64,000 nucleotides of DNA from Aphanomyces cochlioides (Eukaryota > Oomycota > Saprolegniomycetes > Saprolegniales > Verrucalvaceae), in the NCBI GenBank assembly GCA_019828595.1, contig JAHQRK010000022.1, positions 1,364,001 to 1,428,000 of the forward strand, written 5' to 3'. Under the pieces are notes generated by a model. The model searched no databases, was not told the origin of the DNA, and saw only the letters and a list, made by a program, of their open reading frames with translations. The translations under genes and the position numbers were made by a program. Of this stretch, positions 3,599 through 19,201 are shown piece by piece; the stretch's first letter is position 1; each line of letters starts with the position of its first letter.

Positions 3599-4711
3599 TC
3601 CTTTTTCGACCCAAATCAACTTTTTTTGCTTCCCGAATGATATCTCGGCCAATATTTTCTTCCCAACACACGCTATCTCTTATGGCACCTCACATGCTCT
3701 TCTTTCAACCGCATCACAACCCGTCATCCCCGCACGCCGACGAAATGCGTGTAAAATGACAAAAGTACTAGACTTTGCGTCTCCATTTCTCATCCATGAG
3801 GCAAGTGTACCAATCATAAAACACGCATAAATAGAACAGTTCAAACTGGACTTTCACCGAGACCCTGACACGACAAATATTCCATCTCAGTTTCACTTCA
3901 GAAAGGACGATTTTAAATCCTCATTGACTTGGAGGGGACGCTACTTGAGAAACCCTTCCAGTCATTCCTTACTCTCTTCAAAGCAACAAACTTTTCCAAA
4001 ATGGACCCAACTTAAACTTAACCACACTAAACAAATCTCAACAACAGGTAGCTCCAAAGAAACAGCGATTCGTTCAAATGAATACACAATCGTATCAACC
4101 GAGCGCTGGATAGACACATCCACTCGACCTCAGAGTATGTCTCTCAAAACAATGACAGACAAGATGGAAGAGAGCATCCAATTGGACCGTTGGAACTTAT
4201 TATAGATTCCAAGATACATATATGTAGATGATTACAGGAGGTCCATCGTTCCCTGTGAGTTTGTGTGTTTAGACTCGTTTTTTGTGGGAGGGGGCGATGA
4301 TCCGCTTTTGGTTTGAAATGAAAGTATTTGAATAGGTCTACGAGAGGAGACAAACTTTTTCTCCCAAGCCCTTCGAGTATTGCATGTTGGCGAGGACTGA
4401 CCACTCAGTTTGTCTAGGCTTTGGTTGCGAAAATAGAGTGCGCTGAAGGATTTTTGTGTCCAGAGTCGTCGTGAATGGTATGGAAACAGATCACAGACGT
4501 GGAGAGAGGAGATGATGTTTGTGACTTGTGAGGTCGAGTCTATCGTGGGCCGTGTGGTGACAGGATGTTAGTATAGGCGATGTTGTTGTGTGTGCTGACG
4601 TGATGGGTTTGGCGTTGAATGTGTGACAAGGATAGTGTTCCAATGGTTGTGAGAGGGTGCTGGTGTGTGATTGATGTGAATGATGAGCAAGGTAGGCATA
4701 GTAGACATGGA

Positions 4712-5156
4712 GGTCTTATAGTGTAGCGGTTATCACGTCTCCTTGACGTGGAGAATGAGGGGGGAAATTGGCTCAGTGGTAGAGCACACGCTTCGTAAGC
4801 GAGAGGTCACCGGTTCGATCCCGGGCTAGGACGAGGGATTTGCAACCCCTCCACCCCCCTGTCCGAAAGCACGGTATTTAATGGGATGTATGTGATCGGG
4901 AAACTTAAGTGCGCCTCGAACTTACAAGAGAAGGATTGTCCGGAAGCGGTTACCGGAATGAAAGTGTCAGTTTAATGTGGCCGTTCTGTAAAAACGTGTC
5001 GAATCGCTGTACTACCGAAAAGGTAGAACTATCAAGACAAAGCCGTTAGACCTGGTCCAGCTGAGTTAAAGTAGTTCATATCCACTATAACCTAGGTAAT
5101 ATACTCAATAAACCTTGACGTGGAGAAGGTCCCCGGTTCAAGTCCGGGTAAGACCA
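4712..5156 (+). pseudogene. tRNA-Val interrupted by SINE
   Basis: The halves are 4712-4755 and 5115-5156, with unchanged tRNA sequence. Confidence 0.9.
4756..5114 (+). mobile_element. SINE, subtype G, 359 bp
   Basis: One C is lost in the C tract (six instead of seven), a change shared with the next copy at 6314. The two therefore descend from one unit. Confidence 0.85.
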
Positions 5157-6269
5157 TCCTTTTTCGACCCAAATCAACTTTTTTTGCTTCCCGAATGATA
5201 TCTCGGCCAATATTTTCTTCCCAACACACGCTATCTCTTATGGCACCTCACATGCTCTTCTTTCAACCGCATCACAACCCGTCATCCCCGCACGCCGACG
5301 AAATGCGTGTAAAATGACAAAAGTACTAGACTTTGCGTCTCCATTTCTCATCCATGAGGCAAGTGTACCAATCATAAAACACGCATAAATAGAACAGTTC
5401 AAACTGGACTTTCACCGAGACCCTGACACGACAAATATTCCATCTCAGTTTCACTTCAGAAAGGACGATTTTAAATCCTCATTGACTTGGAGGGGACGCT
5501 ACTTGAGAAACCCTTCCAGTCATTCCTTACTCTCTTCAAAGCAACAAACTTTTCCAAAATGGACCCAACTTAAACTTAACCACACTAAACAAATCTCAAC
5601 AACAGGTAGCTCCAAAGAAACAGCGATTCGTTCAAATGAATACACAATCGTATCAACCGAGCGCTGGATAGACACATCCACTCGACCTCAGAGTATGTCT
5701 CTCAAAACAATGACAGACAAGATGGAAGAGAGCATCCAATTGGACCGTTGGAACTTATTATAGATTCCAAGATACATATATGTAGATGATTACAGGAGGT
5801 CCATCGTTCCCTGTGAGTTTGTGTGTTTAGACTCGTTTTTTGTGGGAGGGGGCGATGATCCGCTTTTGGTTTGAAATGAAAGTATTTGAATAGGTCTACG
5901 AGAGGAGACAAACTTTTTCTCCCAAGCCCTTCGAGTATTGCATGTTGGCGAGGACTGACCACTCAGTTTGTCTAGGCTTTGGTTGCGAAAATAGAGTGCG
6001 CTGAAGGATTTTTGTGTCCAGAGTCGTCGTGAATGGTATGGAAACAGATCACAGACGTGGAGAGAGGAGATGATGTTTGTGACTTGTGAGGTCGAGTCTA
6101 TCGTGGGCCGTGTGGTGACAGGATGTTAGTATAGGCGATGTTGTTGTGTGTGCTGACGTGATGGGTTTGGCGTTGAATGTGTGACAAGGATAGTGTTCCA
6201 ATGGTTGTGAGAGGGTGCTGGTGTGTGATTGATGTGAATGATGAGCAAGGTAGGCATAGTAGACATGGA

Positions 6270-6714
6270 GGTCTTATAGTGTAGCGGTTATCACGTCTCC
6301 TTGACGTGGAGAATGAGGGGGGAAATTGGCTCAGTGGTAGAGCACACGCTTCGTAAGCGAGAGGTCACCGGTTCGATCCCGGGCTAGGACGAGGGATTTG
6401 CAACCCCTCCACCCCCCTGTCCGAAAGCACGGTATTTAATGGGATGTATGTGATCGGGAAACTTAAGTGCGCCTCGAACTTACAAGAGAAGGATTGTCCG
6501 GAAGCGGTTACCGGAATGAAAGTGTCAGTTTAATGTGGCCGTTCTGTAAAAACGTGTCGAATCGCTGTACTACCGAAAAGGTAGAACTATCAAGACAAAG
6601 CCGTTAGACCTGGTCCAGCTGAGTTAAAGTAGTTCATATCCACTATAACCTAGGTAATATACTCAATAAACCTTGACGTGGAGAAGGTCCCCGGTTCAAG
6701 TCCGGGTAAGACCA
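6270..6714 (+). pseudogene. tRNA-Val interrupted by SINE
   Basis: The halves are 6270-6313 and 6673-6714. This is the last SINE unit before the LINE-bearing unit. Confidence 0.9.
6314..6672 (+). mobile_element. SINE, subtype G, 359 bp
   Basis: Carries the same six-C tract as the copy at 4756. Confidence 0.85.
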
Positions 6715-7863
6715 TCCTTTTTCGACCCAAATCAACTTTTTTTGCTTCCCGAATGATATCTCGGCCAATATTTTCTTCCCAACACACGCTATCTCTTATG
6801 GCACCTCACATGCTCTTCTTTCAACCGCATCACAACCCGTCATCCCCGCACGCCGACGAAATGCGTGTAAAATGACAAAAGTACTAGACTTTGCGTCTCC
6901 ATTTCTCATCCATGAGGCAAGTGTACCAATCATAAAACACGCATAAATAGAACAGTTCAAACTGGACTTTCACCGAGACCCTGACACGACAAATATTCCA
7001 TCTCAGTTTCACTTCAGAAAGGACGATTTTAAATCCTCATTGACTTGGAGGGGACGCTACTTGAGAAACCCTTCCAGTCATTCCTTACTCTCTTCAAAGC
7101 AACAAACTTTTCCAAAATGGACCCAACTTAAACTTAACCACACTAAACAAATCTCAACAACAGGTAGCTCCAAAGAAACAGCGATTCGTTCAAATGAATA
7201 CACAATCGTATCAACCGAGCGCTGGATAGACACATCCACTCGACCTCAGAGTATGTCTCTCAAAACAATGACAGACAAGATGGAAGAGAGCATCCAATTG
7301 GACCGTTGGAACTTATTATAGATTCCAAGATACATATATGTAGATGATTACAGGAGGTCCATCGTTCCCTGTGAGTTTGTGTGTTTAGACTCGTTTTTTG
7401 TGGGAGGGGGCGATGATCCGCTTTTGGTTTGAAATGAAAGTATTTGAATAGGTCTACGAGAGGAGACAAACTTTTTCTCCCAAGCCCTTCGAGTATTGCA
7501 TGTTGGCGAGGACTGACCACTCAGTTTGTCTAGGCTTTGGTTGCGAAAATAGAGTGCGCTGAAGGATTTTTGTGTCCAGAGTCGTCGTGAATGGTATGGA
7601 AACAGATCACAGACGTGGAGAGAGGAGATGATGTTTGTGACTTGTGAGGTCGAGTCTATCGTGGGCCGTGTGGTGACAGGATGTTAGTATAGGCGATGTT
7701 GTTGTGTGTGCTGACGTGATGGGTTTGGCGTTGAATGTGTGACAAGGATAGTGTTCCAATGGTTGTGAGAGGGTGCTGGTGTGTGATTGATGTGAATGAT
7801 GAGCAAGGTAGGCATAGTAGACATGGAGGTCTTATAGTGTAGCGGTTATCACGTCTCCTTGAC

Positions 7864-10788
7864 GTGGAGAATCATCTCGAGAAAGCGGAAAGGTGTACCA
7901 AATTTCACCTGAAGCCACCTCGCACAATCCCTTTACAAAAATCTCCCTTCAAGGCACTCAAAATGTCCAATGGAAATATTGCTTCTGATCAACAATCAAT
8001 TTCCTCGACACTCCACGAGTTTTATTCTGACCTGTATGGCGACCATGAGGCAGTTGACAAGGAAAGAATGGCCAAGTATTTAAAAACTCTGATATCTCGC
8101 CGACTCAATATCGACGACAAGAGATTTATTGGGGCTCCTCTCACGGCAAACGAATTTTATTTTGCCATTAAACACTCCAAACGGAATTCAACTCCTGGGC
8201 CAAATTCACTGCCCTACGAAATTTTGAAAATGTTTCCCCATGAATGGTCCCTGGCTTTGGAAATGCTATACTATTACCAAATCAACTCTCACTCCAACTT
8301 GGCACCCTCCCAATTGACAAGTTTAATTGTACTGCTGTACAAAAAGGACGACAAACTACTCCCAAAAAATTACCGTCCCATCAGCTTGGTCAATATCGAC
8401 GTGAAAATCCTCACAATGGTCCTTGCAGAACGAATGCAGAGAATCATTCAGTCGATAGTCCACCCGGATCAAACAGGATTTATTCGTGGTCGATCAATCC
8501 AAACCAATTTACTGCGCTTGGAAGACCTGAATCACTTTATGAAGTTTTATTCCTCCGAGTCTATTGTGGCCCTCTTGGACTTTGAAAAAGCCTTTGATAG
8601 GGTCAACCATTCCTATTTATTGGCAACCCTGAAGGAATTTAATTTTCCACCGTCCTTTCTCAACATGGTCAAAGTGCTTTATTCAAATCGTCGTGGACGA
8701 ATTATTGTCAATGGACATTTATCCAACCCATTTAAGATCCAACGTGGTGTTTTACAAGGCGACCCATTATCACCTCTTTTATTTGTCTTGGCGCTAGAAC
8801 CTATGTGTTTAGCCATACGCAAGAGAAAAGATTTGGGCATACGAATTGGTCATCACACTCACACCGGGAGCTATTATGCAGACGACTCCCAATTGTACTC
8901 CAAAAATACATCGACGTTGCAACTCCAACTCGACATCGTCAAAAAATTCTGTGATATCTCTGGTTTCAAGTTAAATCTCTCCAAGACAGAATTATTAACC
9001 CATGCCAATTTACCTCCAGACCTGGCACCTTTGGCTATTACTGATGACAAACCTGCTAAATCGTTGGGCCTTTTAATTTCTCCCAACATCACAGCCACAA
9101 CACGTTTAAATTCGCTATTGGAGAAATTGGTCTCAAGAACACAATTATGGTCTTATCGAGCACGAACCCTACCCGGAAAAGTGACAATCCTAAGGTCAAT
9201 TTGTTTTCCTGTGCTCTGGTATCAACTCCAATTTATTCCGATCGACAAAGAATATGCCAAACTATTCGACAAGGTCGCCAAGCAATTTATTCACGGCGAT
9301 ACAATTGATCCATATTCGACTCAACGTTATTTGCATCAATTCAACTCGGACATTATTTTCCTTCCAAAAGCACAAGGTGGTCTCGGATTTAAATCGTCTA
9401 CCCACTGGTGGTCAAAACTACACCGGGTCATGACCTTTAAATGCTTCAAGCTACTCCTAGCACCACCTCACAACTCGTATGGTCAAACGAAATTGCCAGC
9501 ATGGCTATCCATTGGAGAATATTTACTCTCCAGAGCCTTCAGTCCATGGGGAAATTTTTATGATCTCCTTTTCATGAGTCCACACTCTAGTATGTACAAA
9601 GCCATATCACACCAAGATAAGGTTCCACCTCTCTGGTCAGCATTTACTCGACTATGGTTATCCTTATCTCCAACCCCACTTAAATTTCCCACAGTACAAG
9701 TCGATGGAAATTTTCCACTTTGGCACAATCAATTCTTACCCTTGGAGAAAACTGTCTTTGAACACTGCTATCCAAAGACTTATGATTATGCTGTATCACT
9801 GGCAAAATTAAATTTTACCCATGTTCGCCACCTACTCGATGAAAATGGCAATCTTATGGATCGGAAAATCCTGTTAGATTGGATTAAATCTCAATGCTCT
9901 AGACGCCATTTAGCCACTCCCGATCATAAATGGTGGTATGCTCTACACGGGAGACTTAAAGCTATTCTACCATCTCCACCCGAGGACACAGAAATTAATT
10001 TTCGTCAGCCTACACCTTATCGGCAAACGGCTACCGAAATTACTTGGGCTGGAAATTTTAAAGATGGCTTTTTACCCTTTATTGATGCCACCTTGGATGA
10101 TTTAACTCATGAATTTAAATCCAAATCAGCTCAGGAGGTTTTACCTACAGCGCATTTATTGGTACCCTCGGATTTTTATGCCCACAAGGAAAATATTAAA
10201 GTGGTCGCATTCTACAGGCAGCCCAAATTTATTCTGCCAACGTATAGTGCTTTCATATATCGACTGCTTATACGAGCCTTACCTCTCCGATACAAATTCA
10301 AGTACTCGGACGATATCCCGAACACTTGTATTTTTTGTCATGAAGTGGAGACGTATAAACATTTCACCTTGGACTGTCCATATACTCGAGCATGTTGGAG
10401 TCCATTTAAATCCATGGCCAGATCCCTTAACTTTACTTGGCCAACTACCATGGAAAAAATATTCTTCTCTCCTATAGCACTCCAAGACAAAGACCTCCAA
10501 GCTGGATTTAATTTGCTGTGGCCAATTTTTTTATCTTGTATTTGGTATACAATATGGAAAACTCGGTGCGACCGGATTTACCGTCCAGATTTACCTAACA
10601 AAACACCTATGACGATATCCAGCTTAGCAGGACACATTATAAAGCGGCATCTGTACCAAGTCAATCGAGCCTCCTTGGACGACTCCACGAAGGCTTCCTT
10701 GACATCGGTGCTTCATAGTTTGCACCAGAATGAGTGGTTCTCTGCCCAAATCTTACCACAATCTCAAAACGAGACCTTGGAACCTTAA
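7864..10788 (+). CDS. LINE ORF2 fragment: reverse transcriptase and CCHC zinc knuckle
   Basis: The open frame runs 974 codons. The first codons (GTG at 7864) are tRNA sequence and the element starts at 7872, so there is no authentic start. Numbering from 7864: linker about 4-100; reverse transcriptase about 100-400 with NYRPISL (169-175), GFIRGRS (205-211), motif A LDFEKAFD with Asp239, RGVLQGDPLSP (294-304) and YYADD (337-341, Asp340/Asp341). The catalytic Asp triad is therefore present. The long C-terminal part ends in Cys822-x2-Cys825-x7-His833-x4-Cys838, the zinc knuckle of L1 and Tx1 clade ORF2 proteins. The AP-like endonuclease that should precede residue 1 is absent, and I see no RNase H. 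The intact parent protein would nick the target and prime cDNA synthesis there. This copy cannot encode a complete protein. Confidence 0.93.
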   Translation: MENHLEKAERCTKFHLKPPRTIPLQKSPFKALKMSNGNIASDQQSISSTLHEFYSDLYGDHEAVDKERMAKYLKTLISRRLNIDDKRFIGAPLTANEFYFAIKHSKRNSTPGPNSLPYEILKMFPHEWSLALEMLYYYQINSHSNLAPSQLTSLIVLLYKKDDKLLPKNYRPISLVNIDVKILTMVLAERMQRIIQSIVHPDQTGFIRGRSIQTNLLRLEDLNHFMKFYSSESIVALLDFEKAFDRVNHSYLLATLKEFNFPPSFLNMVKVLYSNRRGRIIVNGHLSNPFKIQRGVLQGDPLSPLLFVLALEPMCLAIRKRKDLGIRIGHHTHTGSYYADDSQLYSKNTSTLQLQLDIVKKFCDISGFKLNLSKTELLTHANLPPDLAPLAITDDKPAKSLGLLISPNITATTRLNSLLEKLVSRTQLWSYRARTLPGKVTILRSICFPVLWYQLQFIPIDKEYAKLFDKVAKQFIHGDTIDPYSTQRYLHQFNSDIIFLPKAQGGLGFKSSTHWWSKLHRVMTFKCFKLLLAPPHNSYGQTKLPAWLSIGEYLLSRAFSPWGNFYDLLFMSPHSSMYKAISHQDKVPPLWSAFTRLWLSLSPTPLKFPTVQVDGNFPLWHNQFLPLEKTVFEHCYPKTYDYAVSLAKLNFTHVRHLLDENGNLMDRKILLDWIKSQCSRRHLATPDHKWWYALHGRLKAILPSPPEDTEINFRQPTPYRQTATEITWAGNFKDGFLPFIDATLDDLTHEFKSKSAQEVLPTAHLLVPSDFYAHKENIKVVAFYRQPKFILPTYSAFIYRLLIRALPLRYKFKYSDDIPNTCIFCHEVETYKHFTLDCPYTRACWSPFKSMARSLNFTWPTTMEKIFFSPIALQDKDLQAGFNLLWPIFLSCIWYTIWKTRCDRIYRPDLPNKTPMTISSLAGHIIKRHLYQVNRASLDDSTKASLTSVLHSLHQNEWFSAQILPQSQNETLEP

Positions 10789-11906
10789 AAGGCATGTTAT
10801 ATTGCAACCTTTGAAGAAATTCACCTAAGTCACCCAAACCAATGGGAAAACTCAAAGTGGATTTTCTCGCGACCCACTTGGCCTTTTCATGCGTTTGATG
10901 GCTCGTTAGCCCCAGCTAACAGAGCTCTATGAACACACCAAGTAACTTTATCTCATGCCGAGTCGTTCACAAAATCGACTTGACTTTATCCGTTCACCCA
11001 AAATGGCAAAACTATCGACAACTCTGGCATTGCTCTGACGATCATTTCAGACATTCTAATGGTCATCAGGGTTGCTAGACATCCCAAGCAGACAAACGCA
11101 AGCGTTAGATTGCAAAAAAGTGCAGTGGTTCTCTCACAACAACACTTTGAAAATTGTTACGACGTCTCCCCCTGGGGGCGAAATCTCAAAATCGAGTGCA
11201 CACTTTTTGTTCGGGAAAATTGCGCCACGGTGCCTAAAAGATTCTCCCATGTCTCCTCCTCAAGATGTGCCAGTTTGCGAGTGCTCAAACCTCTCCAAAC
11301 TCGCGAAACAAAATTCGAAAGGAAATTCGACCCGGTGACACCCATTTTGAACCGGTTTCAACCCGTCACCAAAAGTGAAATTTCTCTCGACCTACTGCGT
11401 GGATTTCTACGTTTAGTGGCTTGTTATCTCAGTTGAATCGAGCTCTATGCCGACACCAACTAGCACATATTGCAGATCTATGGTTCAAAACCACGAACCC
11501 ATTTTGGACTGTCACCCAAACCGGTGAAACACCAGGACAACTCGAACGCTTTCCCTACGGTCACCGAGTGACATCTAGGGGTCTAGTGGGTGGCTCCACC
11601 ACTTATTACGACTAGCCAAAGCGTTAGAACGCCCTGAAACATCCTGGTTTGCTCGCAATCCTCAATCCAAAATGTCAACCGCCCCTATCCACCGGCTACA
11701 AAACCTTAAGTCGGCTACAGGTCGCAAATCATTTCCAATCGACCGGCTATGACTCTTTTCCATCCTATCATGGCTAGACGAGTGTTTTAAGCCATCAAGA
11801 GCGATGATTGAAGCCCTGGAACCTACTTGCCGTCGCCCCGACAACTTTTGGTGAAATGGCTAAAACTCATCGGAATGGCTCCTGAACGCAAATCAACTCC
11901 GATCGC

Positions 11907-12146
11907 CCAACTTAGAGTTGGAGAGGCTCGAGAATGTCCTCGCGATGGATTTGAGCTATCAAGCACCATGATAGCAGCACAGGAACCCAACTTCCGATTC
12001 CAAACCATTTTGAGCCGATAAGGCTCCAAAACGACCATCGTAGCTCATTTCAGCTACACTACTCTATATGCACCGATTAATATGGTGCATCCACCGCTAG
12101 CCTCCATTGATGGAGGACACCAAGTATGGCTATCTATCTCATAGCC
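11907..12146 (+). other. Train of hairpins in the LINE 3' UTR, about 30-nt spacing
   Basis: Stems by position: 11907-11912/11916-11921 (6 bp); 11955-11961/11969-11975 (7 bp); 12008-12016/12022-12031 (9 bp, one bulge); 12040-12045/12052-12057 (6 bp); 12068-12074/12084-12090 (7 bp); 12101-12106/12111-12116 (6 bp, tetraloop); 12128-12133/12141-12146 (6 bp). Weaker 4-bp stems lie at 11923-11941 and 11982-11995. The last five main centres lie 28.5-30.5 nt apart. The role is unknown; RNA packaging, protein binding or template recognition are possibilities. Confidence 0.7.
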
Positions 12147-12468
12147 GTTCGGAAGTTATGACTCCTTCAAATTTGGCCGCCGAGACGCCCGATTGGAAAA
12201 ACCACTGGTTTTGGCTAGCGCTCTCCCGCTACACACTACCTATGGCGATTCTAATGGTGCGCTATCCTTCGTACGTATCGTCGCTACGATTCTGCCAAGT
12301 GGCTCCATGCACCGCGGCGCCGTTCGAAATCCAGCTCCGACGATGCTCGCGCTCGAGACCTATCCGCGCATGGCGCATGTCAAAATGGCACCTCCCAAAT
12401 ATTTTACCCTTTTTTATTATTTTTGGGAGGTTTACCCCAAAAGCCCAACCCACAAGGGATTTTCCCTC

Positions 12469-12594
12469 TATCTCGCCACCTTCAACTCCGACGAAGACGC
12501 TCCTGAAATCAACTTTGCTTGTCATGGAACGACCGACCTCGTTGATTTTTTTGGCTGGTCAAATCGTCCAAGAACATTTTATTTTGGATGGTCT
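12469..12594 (+). repeat. Diverged direct duplication in LINE 3' UTR, copy A
   Basis: Aligns without gaps to 12918-13043 with 78 of 126 bases identical by hand count. Translated in matching frames the two share 19 of 42 residues, including YLAT, NSD, AC, FF and NR positions. Confidence 0.65.
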
Positions 12595-12631
12595 TTTCTC
12601 TCAAACCCAGCTTTTCCCATGGATCCAGCGA

Positions 12632-12661
12632 TTTAATTCGGCCTCCTGAGGTCGAATTAAA
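12632..12661 (+). other. Near-perfect 30-nt palindromic hairpin
   Basis: The arms run outward from a two-base centre (12646-12647). There are 14 pairs, of which one is a G-T wobble (12641/12652). It is the strongest inverted repeat noticed in the element. Confidence 0.8.
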
Positions 12662-12917
12662 TTGGCCACGACCTTTTTGGATTTTTTGGGCTCCTACCTC
12701 TTGCCAATTTATTTTCCTTGGGCCTGATTTTACTCTGTTTCGACCCTTTTGTCAATTTTTGGCCTTCCTCTCCTGTCGATTTATTTATCCATGGATCGAC
12801 CCCAACTCAAGCTTTTATTTACTTGGCCTTTTCACTGCGTACCTCCACTTGGAATTTTTATCAAGACTTTTGTATACAAATTTTCAAGTCCTCCACAGTC
12901 AACCCGAAATTGCCTCG

Positions 12918-13043
12918 TATCTCGCCACCACCAACTCGGATCAAGATGGTCATGAAAAGAAAGTTGCTTGTATGGCTCTTCTCTATACTGTTGAATTTTT
13001 TCACAGCCTGAATCGCCATGCAACATTTTCTTTCTGCCATGGT
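12918..13043 (+). repeat. Diverged direct duplication in LINE 3' UTR, copy B
   Basis: Partner of 12469-12594, offset 449 bp. The two copies lie in different reading frames relative to each other, which argues against one continuous protein. Confidence 0.65.
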
Positions 13044-13183
13044 TCCTCCAAATTACCCCACACCCCAAGTCTATTTCGGTTAAGCAACACTGGACGATTT
13101 TCCACAAGAACCTTCCAAGGTCACATTTCGCAACACATATTTATTATGCGACCTATGAAGCCAAAATCGAAAGTCTAGTTTGC

Positions 13184-13197
13184 GGCCCTTTTGGGCC
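13184..13197 (+). other. 3'-terminal LINE hairpin
   Basis: GGCCC-TTTT-GGGCC lies 30 nt before the 3' end of the LINE. In LINEs the 3'-terminal RNA structure often serves as the reverse transcriptase recognition site. The SINE shares the tail after it but not this stem. Confidence 0.7.
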
Positions 13198-14382
13198 ATA
13201 TTAATTCTTTAATATACTCAGTTAACCTTGACGTGGAGAAGGTCCCCGGTTCAAGTCCGGGTAAGACCATCCTTTTTCGACCCAAATCAACTTTTTTTGC
13301 TTCCCGAATGATATCTCGGCCAATATTTTCTTCCCAACACACGCTATCTCTTATGGCACCTCACATGCTCTTCTTTCAACCGCATCACAACCCGTCATCC
13401 CCGCACGCCGACGAAATGCGTGTAAAATGACAAAAGTACTAGACTTTGCGTCTCCATTTCTCATCCATGAGGCAAGTGTACCAATCATAAAACACGCATA
13501 AATAGAACAGTTCAAACTGGACTTTCACCGAGACCCTGACACGACAAATATTCCATCTCAGTTTCACTTCAGAAAGGACGATTTTAAATCCTCATTGACT
13601 TGGAGGGGACGCTACTTGAGAAACCCTTCCAGTCATTCCTTACTCTCTTCAAAGCAACAAACTTTTCCAAAATGGACCCAACTTAAACTTAACCACACTA
13701 AACAAATCTCAACAACAGGTAGCTCCAAAGAAACAGCGATTCGTTCAAATGAATACACAATCGTATCAACCGAGCGCTGGATAGACACATCCACTCGACC
13801 TCAGAGTATGTCTCTCAAAACAATGACAGACAAGATGGAAGAGAGCATCCAATTGGACCGTTGGAACTTATTATAGATTCCAAGATACATATATGTAGAT
13901 GATTACAGGAGGTCCATCGTTCCCTGTGAGTTTGTGTGTTTAGACTCGTTTTTTGTGGGAGGGGGCGATGATCCGCTTTTGGTTTGAAATGAAAGTATTT
14001 GAATAGGTCTACGAGAGGAGACAAACTTTTTCTCCCAAGCCCTTCGAGTATTGCATGTTGGCGAGGACTGACCACTCAGTTTGTCTAGGCTTTGGTTGCG
14101 AAAATAGAGTGCGCTGAAGGATTTTTGTGTCCAGAGTCGTCGTGAATGGTATGGAAACAGATCACAGACGTGGAGAGAGGAGATGATGTTTGTGACTTGT
14201 GAGGTCGAGTCTATCGTGGGCCGTGTGGTGACAGGATGTTAGTATAGGCGATGTTGTTGTGTGTGCTGACGTGATGGGTTTGGCGTTGAATGTGTGACAA
14301 GGATAGTGTTCCAATGGTTGTGAGAGGGTGCTGGTGTGTGATTGATGTGAATGATGAGCAAGGTAGGCATAGTAGACATGGA

Positions 14383-14828
14383 GGTCTTATAGTGTAGCGG
14401 TTATCACGTCTCCTTGACGTGGAGAATGAGGGGGGAAATTGGCTCAGTGGTAGAGCACACGCTTCGTAAGCGAGAGGTCACCGGTTCGATCCCGGGCTAG
14501 GACGAGGGATTTGCAACCCCTCCACCCCCCCTGTCCGAAAGCACGGTATTTAATGGGATGTATGTAATCGGGAAACTTAAGTGCGCCTCGAACTTACAAG
14601 AGAAGGATTGTCCGGAAGCGGTTACCGGAATGAAAGTGTCAGTTTAATGTGGCCGTTCTGTAAAAACGTGTCGAATCGCTGTACTACCGAAAAGGTAGAA
14701 CTATCAAGACAAAGCCGTTAGACCTGGTCCAGCTGAGTTAAAGTAGTTCATATCCACTATAACCTAGGTAATATACTCAATAAACCTTGACGTGGAGAAG
14801 GTCCCCGGTTCAAGTCCGGGTAAGACCA
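14383..14828 (+). pseudogene. tRNA-Val interrupted by SINE
   Basis: The halves are 14383-14426 and 14787-14828. This is the first unit after the LINE-bearing one. Confidence 0.9.
14427..14786 (+). mobile_element. SINE, subtype A, 360 bp
   Basis: First copy with GTAATC (A at 14566, element position 140) in place of GTGATC. All SINEs from here on share this except the one at 58048. Confidence 0.85.
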
Positions 14829-15948
14829 TCCTTTTTCGACCCAAATCAACTTTTTTTGCTTCCCGAATGATATCTCGGCCAATATTTTCTTCCCAACACA
14901 CGCTATCTCTTATGGCACCTCACATGCTCTTCTTTCAACCGCATCACAACCCGTCATCCCCGCACGCCGACGAAATGCGTGTAAAATGACAAAAGTACTA
15001 GACTTTGCGTCTCCATTTCTCATCCATGAGGCAAGTGTACCAATCATAAAACACGCATAAATAGAACAGTTCAAACTGGACTTTCACCGAGACCCTGACA
15101 CGACAAATATTCCATCTCAGTTTCACTTCAGAAAGGACGATTTTAAATCCTCATTGACTTGGAGGGGACGCTACTTGAGAAACCCTTCCAGTCATTCCTT
15201 ACTCTCTTCAAAGCAACAAACTTTTCCAAAATGGACCCAACTTAAACTTAACCACACTAAACAAATCTCAACAACAGGTAGCTCCAAAGAAACAGCGATT
15301 CGTTCAAATGAATACACAATCGTATCAACCGAGCGCTGGATAGACACATCCACTCGACCTCAGAGTATGTCTCTCAAAACAATGACAGACAAGATGGAAG
15401 AGAGCATCCAATTGGACCGTTGGAACTTATTATAGATTCCAAGATACATATATGTAGATGATTACAGGAGGTCCATCGTTCCCTGTGAGTTTGTGTGTTT
15501 AGACTCGTTTTTTGTGGGAGGGGGCGATGATCCGCTTTTGGTTTGAAATGAAAGTATTTGAATAGGTCTACGAGAGGAGACAAACTTTTTCTCCCAAGCC
15601 CTTCGAGTATTGCATGTTGGCGAGGACTGACCACTCAGTTTGTCTAGGCTTTGGTTGCGAAAATAGAGTGCGCTGAAGGATTTTTGTGTCCAGAGTCGTC
15701 GTGAATGGTATGGAAACAGATCACAGACGTGGAGAGAGGAGATGATGTTTGTGACTTGTGAGGTCGAGTCTATCGTGGGCCGTGTGGTGACAGGATGTTA
15801 GTATAGGCGATGTTGTTGTGTGTGCTGACGTGATGGGTTTGGCGTTGAATGTGTGACAAGGATAGTGTTCCAATGGTTGTGAGAGGGTGCTGGTGTGTGA
15901 TTGATGTGAATGATGAGCAAGGTAGGCATAGTAGACATGGAGGTCTTA

Positions 15949-15959
15949 TAGTGTAGCGG
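15949..15959 (+). promoter_or_regulatory. Pol III A box inside tRNA-Val
   Basis: TAGTGTAGCGG matches the A-box pattern TRGYNNARNNGG. It lies in the 5' part of the gene, so it is kept in the left half of every interrupted gene except the rearranged fragment at 18787. Confidence 0.85.
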
Positions 15960-15992
15960 TTATCACGTCTCCTTGACGTGGAGAAGGTCCCC

Positions 15993-16003
15993 GGTTCAAG
16001 TCC
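15993..16003 (+). promoter_or_regulatory. Pol III B box inside tRNA-Val
   Basis: GGTTCAAGTCC fits the B-box consensus GGTTCRANNCC. It lies 3' of the retroelement insertion point, so in interrupted genes it is separated from the A box by the insert. Confidence 0.88.
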
Positions 16004-16017
16004 GGGTAAGACCATCC

Positions 16018-18786: not shown

Positions 18787-19201
18787 TTGACGTGGAGAAT
18801 GAGGGGGGAAATTGGCTCAGTGGTAGAGCACACGCTTCGTAAGCGAGAGGTCACCGGTTCGATCCCGGGCTAGGACGAGGGATTTGCAACCCCTCCACCC
18901 CCCCTGTCCGAAAGCACGGTATTTAATGGGATGTATGTAATCGGGAAACTTAAGTGCGCCTCGAACTTACAAGAGAAGGATTGTCCGGAAGCGGTTACCG
19001 GAATGAAAGTGTCAGTTTAATGTGGCCGTTCTGTAAAAACGTGTCGAATCGCTGTACTACCGAAAAGGTAGAACTATCAAGACAAAGCCGTTAGACCTGG
19101 TCCAGCTGAGTTAAAGTAGTTCATATCCACTATAACCTAGGTAATATACTCAATAAACCTTGACGTGGAGAAGGTCCCCGGTTCAAGTCCGGGTAAGACC
19201 A
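18787..19201 (+). pseudogene. Rearranged tRNA-Val fragment with SINE; no 5' half
   Basis: Only TTGACGTGGAGAA (tRNA positions 32-44; 18787-18799) remains on the left, fused directly to the T7 run of the preceding gene. The right half, 19160-19201, is normal. Positions 1-31 are absent, so no tRNA can come from this copy. Three bases (TTG) fit both parents at the junction, suggesting microhomology-mediated or unequal recombination between units. Confidence 0.88.
18800..19159 (+). mobile_element. SINE, subtype A, 360 bp, at a rearranged junction
   Basis: The element itself is complete. Its upstream context is 3' flank of an intact gene rather than a tRNA 5' half. Confidence 0.85.

Follow-up and report, generated by a model that had tools for sequence, protein, structure and literature searches.

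Targeted transposable elements have been described as either reading a DNA sequence at one site or being led by a host protein to a neighborhood (PMC3706591). Non-LTR elements inside tRNA genes are already known: the NeSL-related retrotransposons include NeSL-1_TV, reported as specific for tRNA-Pro, LIN15_SM, for tRNA-Arg, and LIN25_SM, for tRNA-Glu (Kojima and Jurka 2015, PMC4640811). In Dictyostelium, the L1-type elements TRE5-A and TRE3-A insert 40 to 54 bp upstream and 40 to 150 bp downstream of the gene, respectively; the TRE5-A ORF1 protein binds TFIIIB, and TRE5 is also found near 5S genes (PMC5911963). Other site-specific elements are Mutsu, Keno, and Dewa, with 5S, U2, and the tRNA-Leu spacer as their targets (PMC3706591, PMC4640811). 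Among DNA transposons, Dada elements use many tRNA isotypes and favor two regions, one of them around the anticodon (PMC8869645).

The window analyzed here, a stretch of 64,000 nucleotides (C15:1364001-1428000) within the 76.2-Mb genome of Aphanomyces cochlioides, an oomycete (water mold) that causes root rot, is a tandem array with a unit of ~1186 bp and one tRNA-Val(GAC) per unit, all on the + strand. It contains 43 tRNA-Val left halves, corresponding to 21 intact genes, 21 genes with a SINE, and 1 gene with a LINE, i.e., about half of the genes (22/43) are split. The features of the LINE-bearing gene and of two further genes of the array are as follows (window positions; basis in parentheses).

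7828..7871, + strand: left part of the split tRNA-Val(GAC), tRNA positions 1-44 (matches intact ARAGORN copies)
7857..7871, + strand: left copy of the 15-bp target site duplication CCTTGACGTGGAGAA (sequence)
7864..10788, + strand: open frame of the truncated ORF2 (RVT_1; zf-RVT match slightly below cutoff)
7872..13225, + strand: 5'-truncated LINE, 5354 bp (alignment to the full-length copy)
10789..13225, + strand: long 3' UTR ending in TTAATATACTCAGTTAA, the tail partly common to the SINE (sequence comparison)
13226..13240, + strand: right copy of the target site duplication CCTTGACGTGGAGAA (sequence)
13226..13269, + strand: right part of the split tRNA-Val(GAC), tRNA positions 30-73 (sequence)
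14383..14828, + strand: tRNA-Val split by a SINE (358-bp body, tail TAATATACTCAATAAA), with the same 15-bp duplication as the LINE (example)
15942..16014, + strand: intact tRNA-Val(GAC), an empty site of the array (ARAGORN)

The LINE duplicated tRNA-Val positions 30-44 (15 bp), and the first 8 bases of its ORF2 frame (7864..10788) fall in the left duplication. Against a full-length copy, L039, it shows 99.7% identity over positions 3880-9233 of that copy, and it has lost the endonuclease part through 5' truncation. The original prediction that a LINE occupies a position in the tRNA-Val anticodon arm also used by SINEs was borne out, with 1 LINE and 21 SINEs in the window. The predicted left boundary (tRNA positions 1-44) was also correct, but the right part starts at position 30 rather than 32 and the duplication, at 15 bp, is longer by CC than had been written.

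The SINE inserts in the window tRNA-Val genes measure 370 to 375 bp, duplication included; 19 of the 21 are identical at their start, so most of them probably arose by copying of the array unit. An orphan tRNA-Val right half (19172-19201) lies behind a SINE that has spacer upstream of it instead of a left half; the unit is a recombined one, joined at TTGACG beside a T run. LINE tails with Val flanks span C15:1084665 to 1484613, from which the array may be ~400 kb long. A second large tRNA family was located by Rfam tRNA search at C23:3862984-4023924 and on C36, its tRNAs often forming opposite-strand pairs ~1 kb apart.

The full-length copy L039 (C15:1157648), of the kind sought by the original prediction for classification of the element, lies in another unit of the tRNA-Val array, is 9233 bp long with the same 15-bp duplication, and has two ORFs. 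ORF1 (L039:938-3205; 756 aa from the in-frame start chosen) is 100% identical to AC1031_012671 of A. cochlioides, the database protein having 837 aa; Pfam recognized no domain in it, a single subthreshold hit (E 0.095) being taken as chance. ORF2 (1361 aa) found its best PDB matches in L1 ORF2p (5e-66), with R2 at 1.7e-26, and its N-terminal part alone matched the L1 endonucleases 2v0s, 8sp5, and 1vyb at 6e-9 to 2e-8; this endonuclease also resembles a PDB entry named LR1. The residues N, QET, NIYAP, GDFN, and DH, which we take to be catalytic, are present in the endonuclease alignment. Pfam found only RVT_1 and a subthreshold zf-RVT in ORF2, with no restriction-like endonuclease, the NeSL trait. 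Target site duplications and 5' truncation, as in APE-type non-LTR retrotransposons, are both present. By similarity, the element is an APE-type, L1-like non-LTR retrotransposon, with an L1-type reverse transcriptase and an N-terminal APE-type endonuclease. APE-type endonucleases are also those of the Tx1 clade, to which, and to which endonuclease type, we presume Mutsu, Keno, and Dewa to belong.

The LINE appears young. When its first 162 bases were used as the query, all 40 of the 65 candidates that were scored proved 99 to 100% identical, starting at base 1, 2, or 3, and many copies thus extend to the 5' end. The family itself is probably older than one species, since ORF1 relatives 91% identical were among the matches listed for A. 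euteiches; the named ORF1 relatives among the 9 listed are from Aphanomyces. Among the best 120 relatives of ORF2, the nearest after one 93% record are 43% identical, and no A. euteiches ORF2 is as close as that species' ORF1. Missing gene calls, the sole way we found to reconcile these figures, may account for the mismatch. No relatives were confirmed in IMG/VR (query P0002) or in GTDB genomes (query P0001).

Genome-wide, the LINE 3' end TTAATATACTCARTWAA occurs 131 times and its reversed control 0 times. The flanks of the other copies, which the original prediction had proposed to tabulate, were read at 130 of the 131 ends, window copy included. Ninety-five are exact tRNA anticodon arms, 10 are other tRNA or tRNA-like sequences identified by eye, 4 are 5S, and 21 are neither, i.e., 109/130 LINE 3' ends lie within tRNA, tRNA-like, or 5S genes. 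The exact arms (n = 95) belong to Ala(AGC) (46 ends), Val(GAC) (21), Ala(CGC) (13), Ala(TGC) (7), Asp(GTC) (5), and Thr(AGT) (3). Those read by eye comprise L029 (probably Phe), L045 (Ala with one base changed), L068 (a shortened Asp), L013, L025, L030, L040, L053, L072, and L073; their T-arm scores (of 12) are 12 for L029 and L025, 11 for L045, L068, and L072, 10 for L030, 9 for L053, and 8 for L013, L040, and L073. ARAGORN and Rfam did not confirm the half or degenerate tRNA genes read by eye at LINE ends. L044, counted as neither tRNA nor 5S, still has a T-arm score of 10. The four 5S targets were identified by Rfam, all at one site in 5S, and a full-length copy in a 5S gene on C63 is flanked by a 13-bp duplication. 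When 21 empty sites were rebuilt by flank joining, ARAGORN recognized 14 of them as tRNA, of the Ala, Val, Thr, Arg, or Gly type.

A single tRNA-Val site as the target was accordingly dropped, other 3' ends lying in many tRNAs and in 5S. The LINE was found in Ala (AGC, CGC, TGC), Asp, Thr, Val, and probably Phe, and the SINE also in Gly and Arg. What stands of the sequence-specific endonuclease originally proposed is that an endonuclease-encoding LINE family favors the anticodon arm; it does not have one site. Taken literally, most copies lack tRNA-Val flanks (Val accounts for only 21/130), the result named beforehand as counting against the prediction, but this objection loses its point because 105 of the 130 ends are in tRNA or tRNA-like sequence.

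Since arrays multiply copies, distinct flanks give a fairer count than the 130 ends. Our own grouping of the 130 flanks yielded 42 distinct ones, of which 23 are in tRNA, tRNA-like, or 5S sequence and 14 on a strict reading; the strict set includes two read by eye (Phe and the altered Ala) and falls to 12/42 without them. The nine Pol III contexts outside the strict 14 are degenerate, partial, or offset, most of them unconfirmed by ARAGORN or Rfam. Against a rough tRNA-gene ceiling of 0.52% of the genome (5429 first-look candidates, 63 of them scored, × 73 bp), the chance of the tRNA enrichment is p ~1e-41 for 23/42, ~5e-22 for 14/42, and ~4e-18 for 12/42. The remaining 19/42 distinct flanks lie outside tRNA and 5S, indicating a preference, not a rule; strictly site-specific elements of the R1/R2 kind have nearly all their copies in a single target sequence, which is not the case here. 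We can scarcely credit that a few events were simply amplified by arrays in the absence of targeting. Although most copies do sit in regularly spaced tandem arrays, amplification as the sole cause is contradicted by the 14 strict (23 with tRNA-like) distinct flanks, by the spread over eight isoacceptors (LINE plus SINE) and 5S, by two different offsets in Asp, and by differing 5' ends.

In the tRNA insertions, the junctions lie just before CC on the 5' strand of the anticodon stem, and CC begins 129/130 of all LINE junction flanks. In 8 LINE and 6 SINE insertions for which the two flanks are available, the duplication begins at tRNA position 28 (in Ala, Thr, and Arg) or at position 30 (in Val and Gly), and its last base is at 41-45; Asp has two offsets three bases apart, 28 and about 31. 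The duplications of the full-length copies examined measure 13 to 17 bp with one exception of 9 bp, and one site, on C18, shows a single mismatch in an otherwise 16-bp duplication. All 105 tRNA or tRNA-like LINE ends read are in gene-sense orientation. In five tRNAs, 90/90 matching junctions fall at one sense site, out of 5 to 8 sense and 7 to 10 antisense CC available per gene (13 to 18 on both strands). The same CC are relevant to survivorship, by which any CC would be hit and copies in multicopy tRNA genes retained. tRNA arrays should indeed tolerate insertions, but the other CC of the same tRNA genes would be equally tolerable and are yet absent among the junctions read, and a sister LINE persists outside tRNAs, all of which makes survivorship very improbable.

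These properties set the Aphanomyces LINE beside, and apart from, the described elements. The NeSL-related tRNA elements are likewise non-LTR retrotransposons with tRNA-gene targets, but they have a restriction-like endonuclease and one reported isotype each, whereas this LINE is of APE type with several isotypes plus 5S (PMC4640811). The TRE elements, like it, are APE-type LINEs associated with Pol III genes; as had been correctly anticipated, they insert beside tRNA genes, keeping a set distance (PMC5911963), whereas the Aphanomyces LINE inserts inside, before positions 28-31. Mutsu, Keno, and Dewa share the use of multicopy RNA genes but are each given with one target, with no internal tRNA position described in the consulted parts of the sources (PMC3706591, PMC4640811). 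Dada elements match it in their many tRNA isotypes and use of the anticodon region but have a DDE transposase and 6- to 7-bp duplications; their lineages mostly have a tRNA of their own, with one family in both Asp and Val (PMC8869645). The original statement that no described family uses this position therefore needs narrowing, given the tRNA-specific NeSL-related elements (PMC4640811) and Dada at the anticodon (PMC8869645). What appears new is an APE-type LINE inside tRNA genes at one coordinate across several isotypes and in 5S, which we did not find in the literature searched (subscription papers and Repbase Reports aside); nor was there anything on this element in Aphanomyces among the literature matches listed. 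Two of the papers cited here do count tRNA genes among the targets of non-LTR elements.

The same genome carries a sister LINE that serves as an internal control. The A. euteiches protein P0002 is 97% identical to the sister's ORF2 and 43% identical to the ORF2 of the tRNA-targeting LINE. The sister's tail, ...CTCATTTAA, occurs 733 times. We read 26 sister junctions, 20 sampled from 100 listed places plus a single junction from each of six loci (at locus L182 the junction belongs to a neighboring copy). CC starts 18/20 of the sampled junctions and 6/6 of those in the loci, 24/26 overall, and 22 of the 24 distinct flanks. None of the 26 junctions read (0/24 distinct flanks) is in a tRNA, against 23/42 for the tRNA-targeting LINE (Fisher, p ~2e-6) or the strict 14/42 (0.001). 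Both LINE families thus have the CC habit, and this habit does not in itself bring about the preference for tRNA. The sister loci are numbered L182-L207; the 100 listed tail places crowd in blocks at C1 4.67-5.04 Mb, C3 2.40-2.57 Mb, and C4 0-0.25 Mb, and in at least one case (L202) the junction lies, by eye, within another copy's ORF2.

A position-weight motif was built from 18 distinct non-tRNA flanks and run on seven tRNAs. Among 134 to 140 positions, the site actually used ranked 2nd in three Ala, 3rd in Thr, 5th in Val, 6th in Arg, and 8th in Gly; in Ala, the motif's top place is the antisense side of the same anticodon stem. As the cause of site choice the motif was rejected, the used site never ranking first, which, together with a CC-using sister with no tRNA at any of its 26 junctions read, also speaks against the single sequence-specific site of the original prediction. 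The ranks in Ala and Thr nevertheless indicate that DNA preference explains part of the choice.

Other evidence for some DNA preference comes from the non-tRNA sites. On C23, the non-Pol III site CCAAAGCAGTGACAA was hit several times; there, at C23:520600-530300, LINE copies (L116, L117) are stacked at one site with repeats of CCAAAGCAGTGACAA between them. Two non-tRNA sites of full-length copies read CCGCTTCG and CCGCATTA. ARAGORN found no tRNA gene beside nine non-tRNA loci (L009-L012, L014, L015, L026, L027, and L031; 1.5 kb of flank on one side), and Rfam no tRNA in eight of them, so a tether is without support at these loci. The only noncoding RNA matches at or near the non-tRNA sites were the four 5S, tRNA-like SINE heads, and one snoRNA below gathering score.

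Direct DNA recognition, in which the ORF2 endonuclease or another part of the protein would read a degenerate sequence or shape with no Pol III protein involved, is how other site-specific APE-type elements are thought to find their targets. A signal common to anticodon arms and 5S might be, for example, CC(G/T)(C/T)T in an inverted repeat. The exact insertion coordinates would fit such recognition, as would CCGC after 81/131 LINE 3' ends and in 6/18 of the distinct non-tRNA flanks used for the motif, the second and third ranks in Ala and Thr, the repeated hits on C23, and the sequences of the two full-length non-tRNA sites. Yet the used site is never the motif's first choice; the stem, being an inverted repeat, offers CCGC on the antisense strand too, with a higher score in Ala, and no antisense insertions were seen; and the Ala site is markedly unlike those in Val, Gly, and Asp. 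We regard direct recognition as a possibility, albeit a somewhat doubtful one. That the motif does not give first rank to the used site favors instead a signal from the Pol III context combined with local CC.

The bodies of the SINE and the LINE do not resemble each other, as first noted, but the elements are not wholly unrelated, since their tails have 11 bp in common (TAATATACTCA) and 14 of the 17 end positions match. The SINE head is tRNA-like (31.5 bits by Rfam in four genome copies), and the traits of a LINE-dependent SINE, a tRNA-derived head and a tail common to the partner LINE, are both present. Its tail occurs 134 times in the genome; in 12 sites read, picked outside the C15 array, 11 insertions hit a tRNA or something tRNA-like (Ala, Gly, Arg, degenerate) and one does not, with CC at the start of 11/12 junctions. 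Gly and Arg are targets beyond the LINE list. The common tail and the tRNA sites fit mobilization by the LINE, and the SINE is probably a passenger moved by it, judging from these sequence comparisons.

A tag carried by the RNA would be another means of homing: read-through RNA extending past the LINE 3' end with target sequence (CCGCUUA...) could pair with nicked tRNA DNA. A 36-bp mini-insertion at the C23 site with the stacked copies (L116, L117) holds two LINE tails; CCGCTTA comes directly after the first, as though the RNA had continued into a tRNA-Ala target. This is one case only, insertions in Val, Asp, Gly, and 5S would each require a tag of their own, and the SINE is found in a similar range of tRNAs; read-through homing thus seems improbable.

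The reading we prefer, and consider rather likely, is that of a young L1-like APE LINE which inserts by target-primed reverse transcription and has a preference for Pol III genes through their context. ORF2p would nick the antisense strand, leaving a 3' end ...GG, with which the end of the LINE RNA (...GUUAA, then CC) would pair and be copied; the second strand would be cut ~15 bp away. The 36-bp mini-insertion on C23 also counts in favor of this reading. CC, often CCGC, may have a role in nicking or priming. Choice of tRNA and 5S genes would most likely depend on ORF1p or ORF2p contacting a Pol III factor which, when bound, would leave the stretch between the A box and the B box open for insertion. 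The anticodon arm lies between these two boxes. The SINE, with the same tail, would be carried by the LINE proteins, and tandem tRNA arrays would take up and multiply the insertions. More tentatively, targeting by this LINE may be a hybrid mode in which the Pol III machinery finds the gene and the cut is made at a fixed internal coordinate between the promoter boxes; such a mode, equally tentatively, would be as general as that of tethered elements and as precise as that of sequence-specific ones.

The Aphanomyces LINE falls between the sequence-reading and protein-led classes of targeting. A tRNA-targeting LINE and a sister with no tRNA among the junctions read, both within one genome, could show which part of the protein confers Pol III targeting, and predictable landing in highly repeated genes is of interest for safe-harbor gene insertion. 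For the element itself, the rDNA, home of R1 and R2, offers a parallel: with 22 of the 43 tRNA-Val genes of the window split, tRNA arrays seem to serve this LINE as rDNA serves R1 and R2. Its landings in tRNA and 5S genes suggest that it reaches safe sites by combining two mechanisms which had been known apart from each other.
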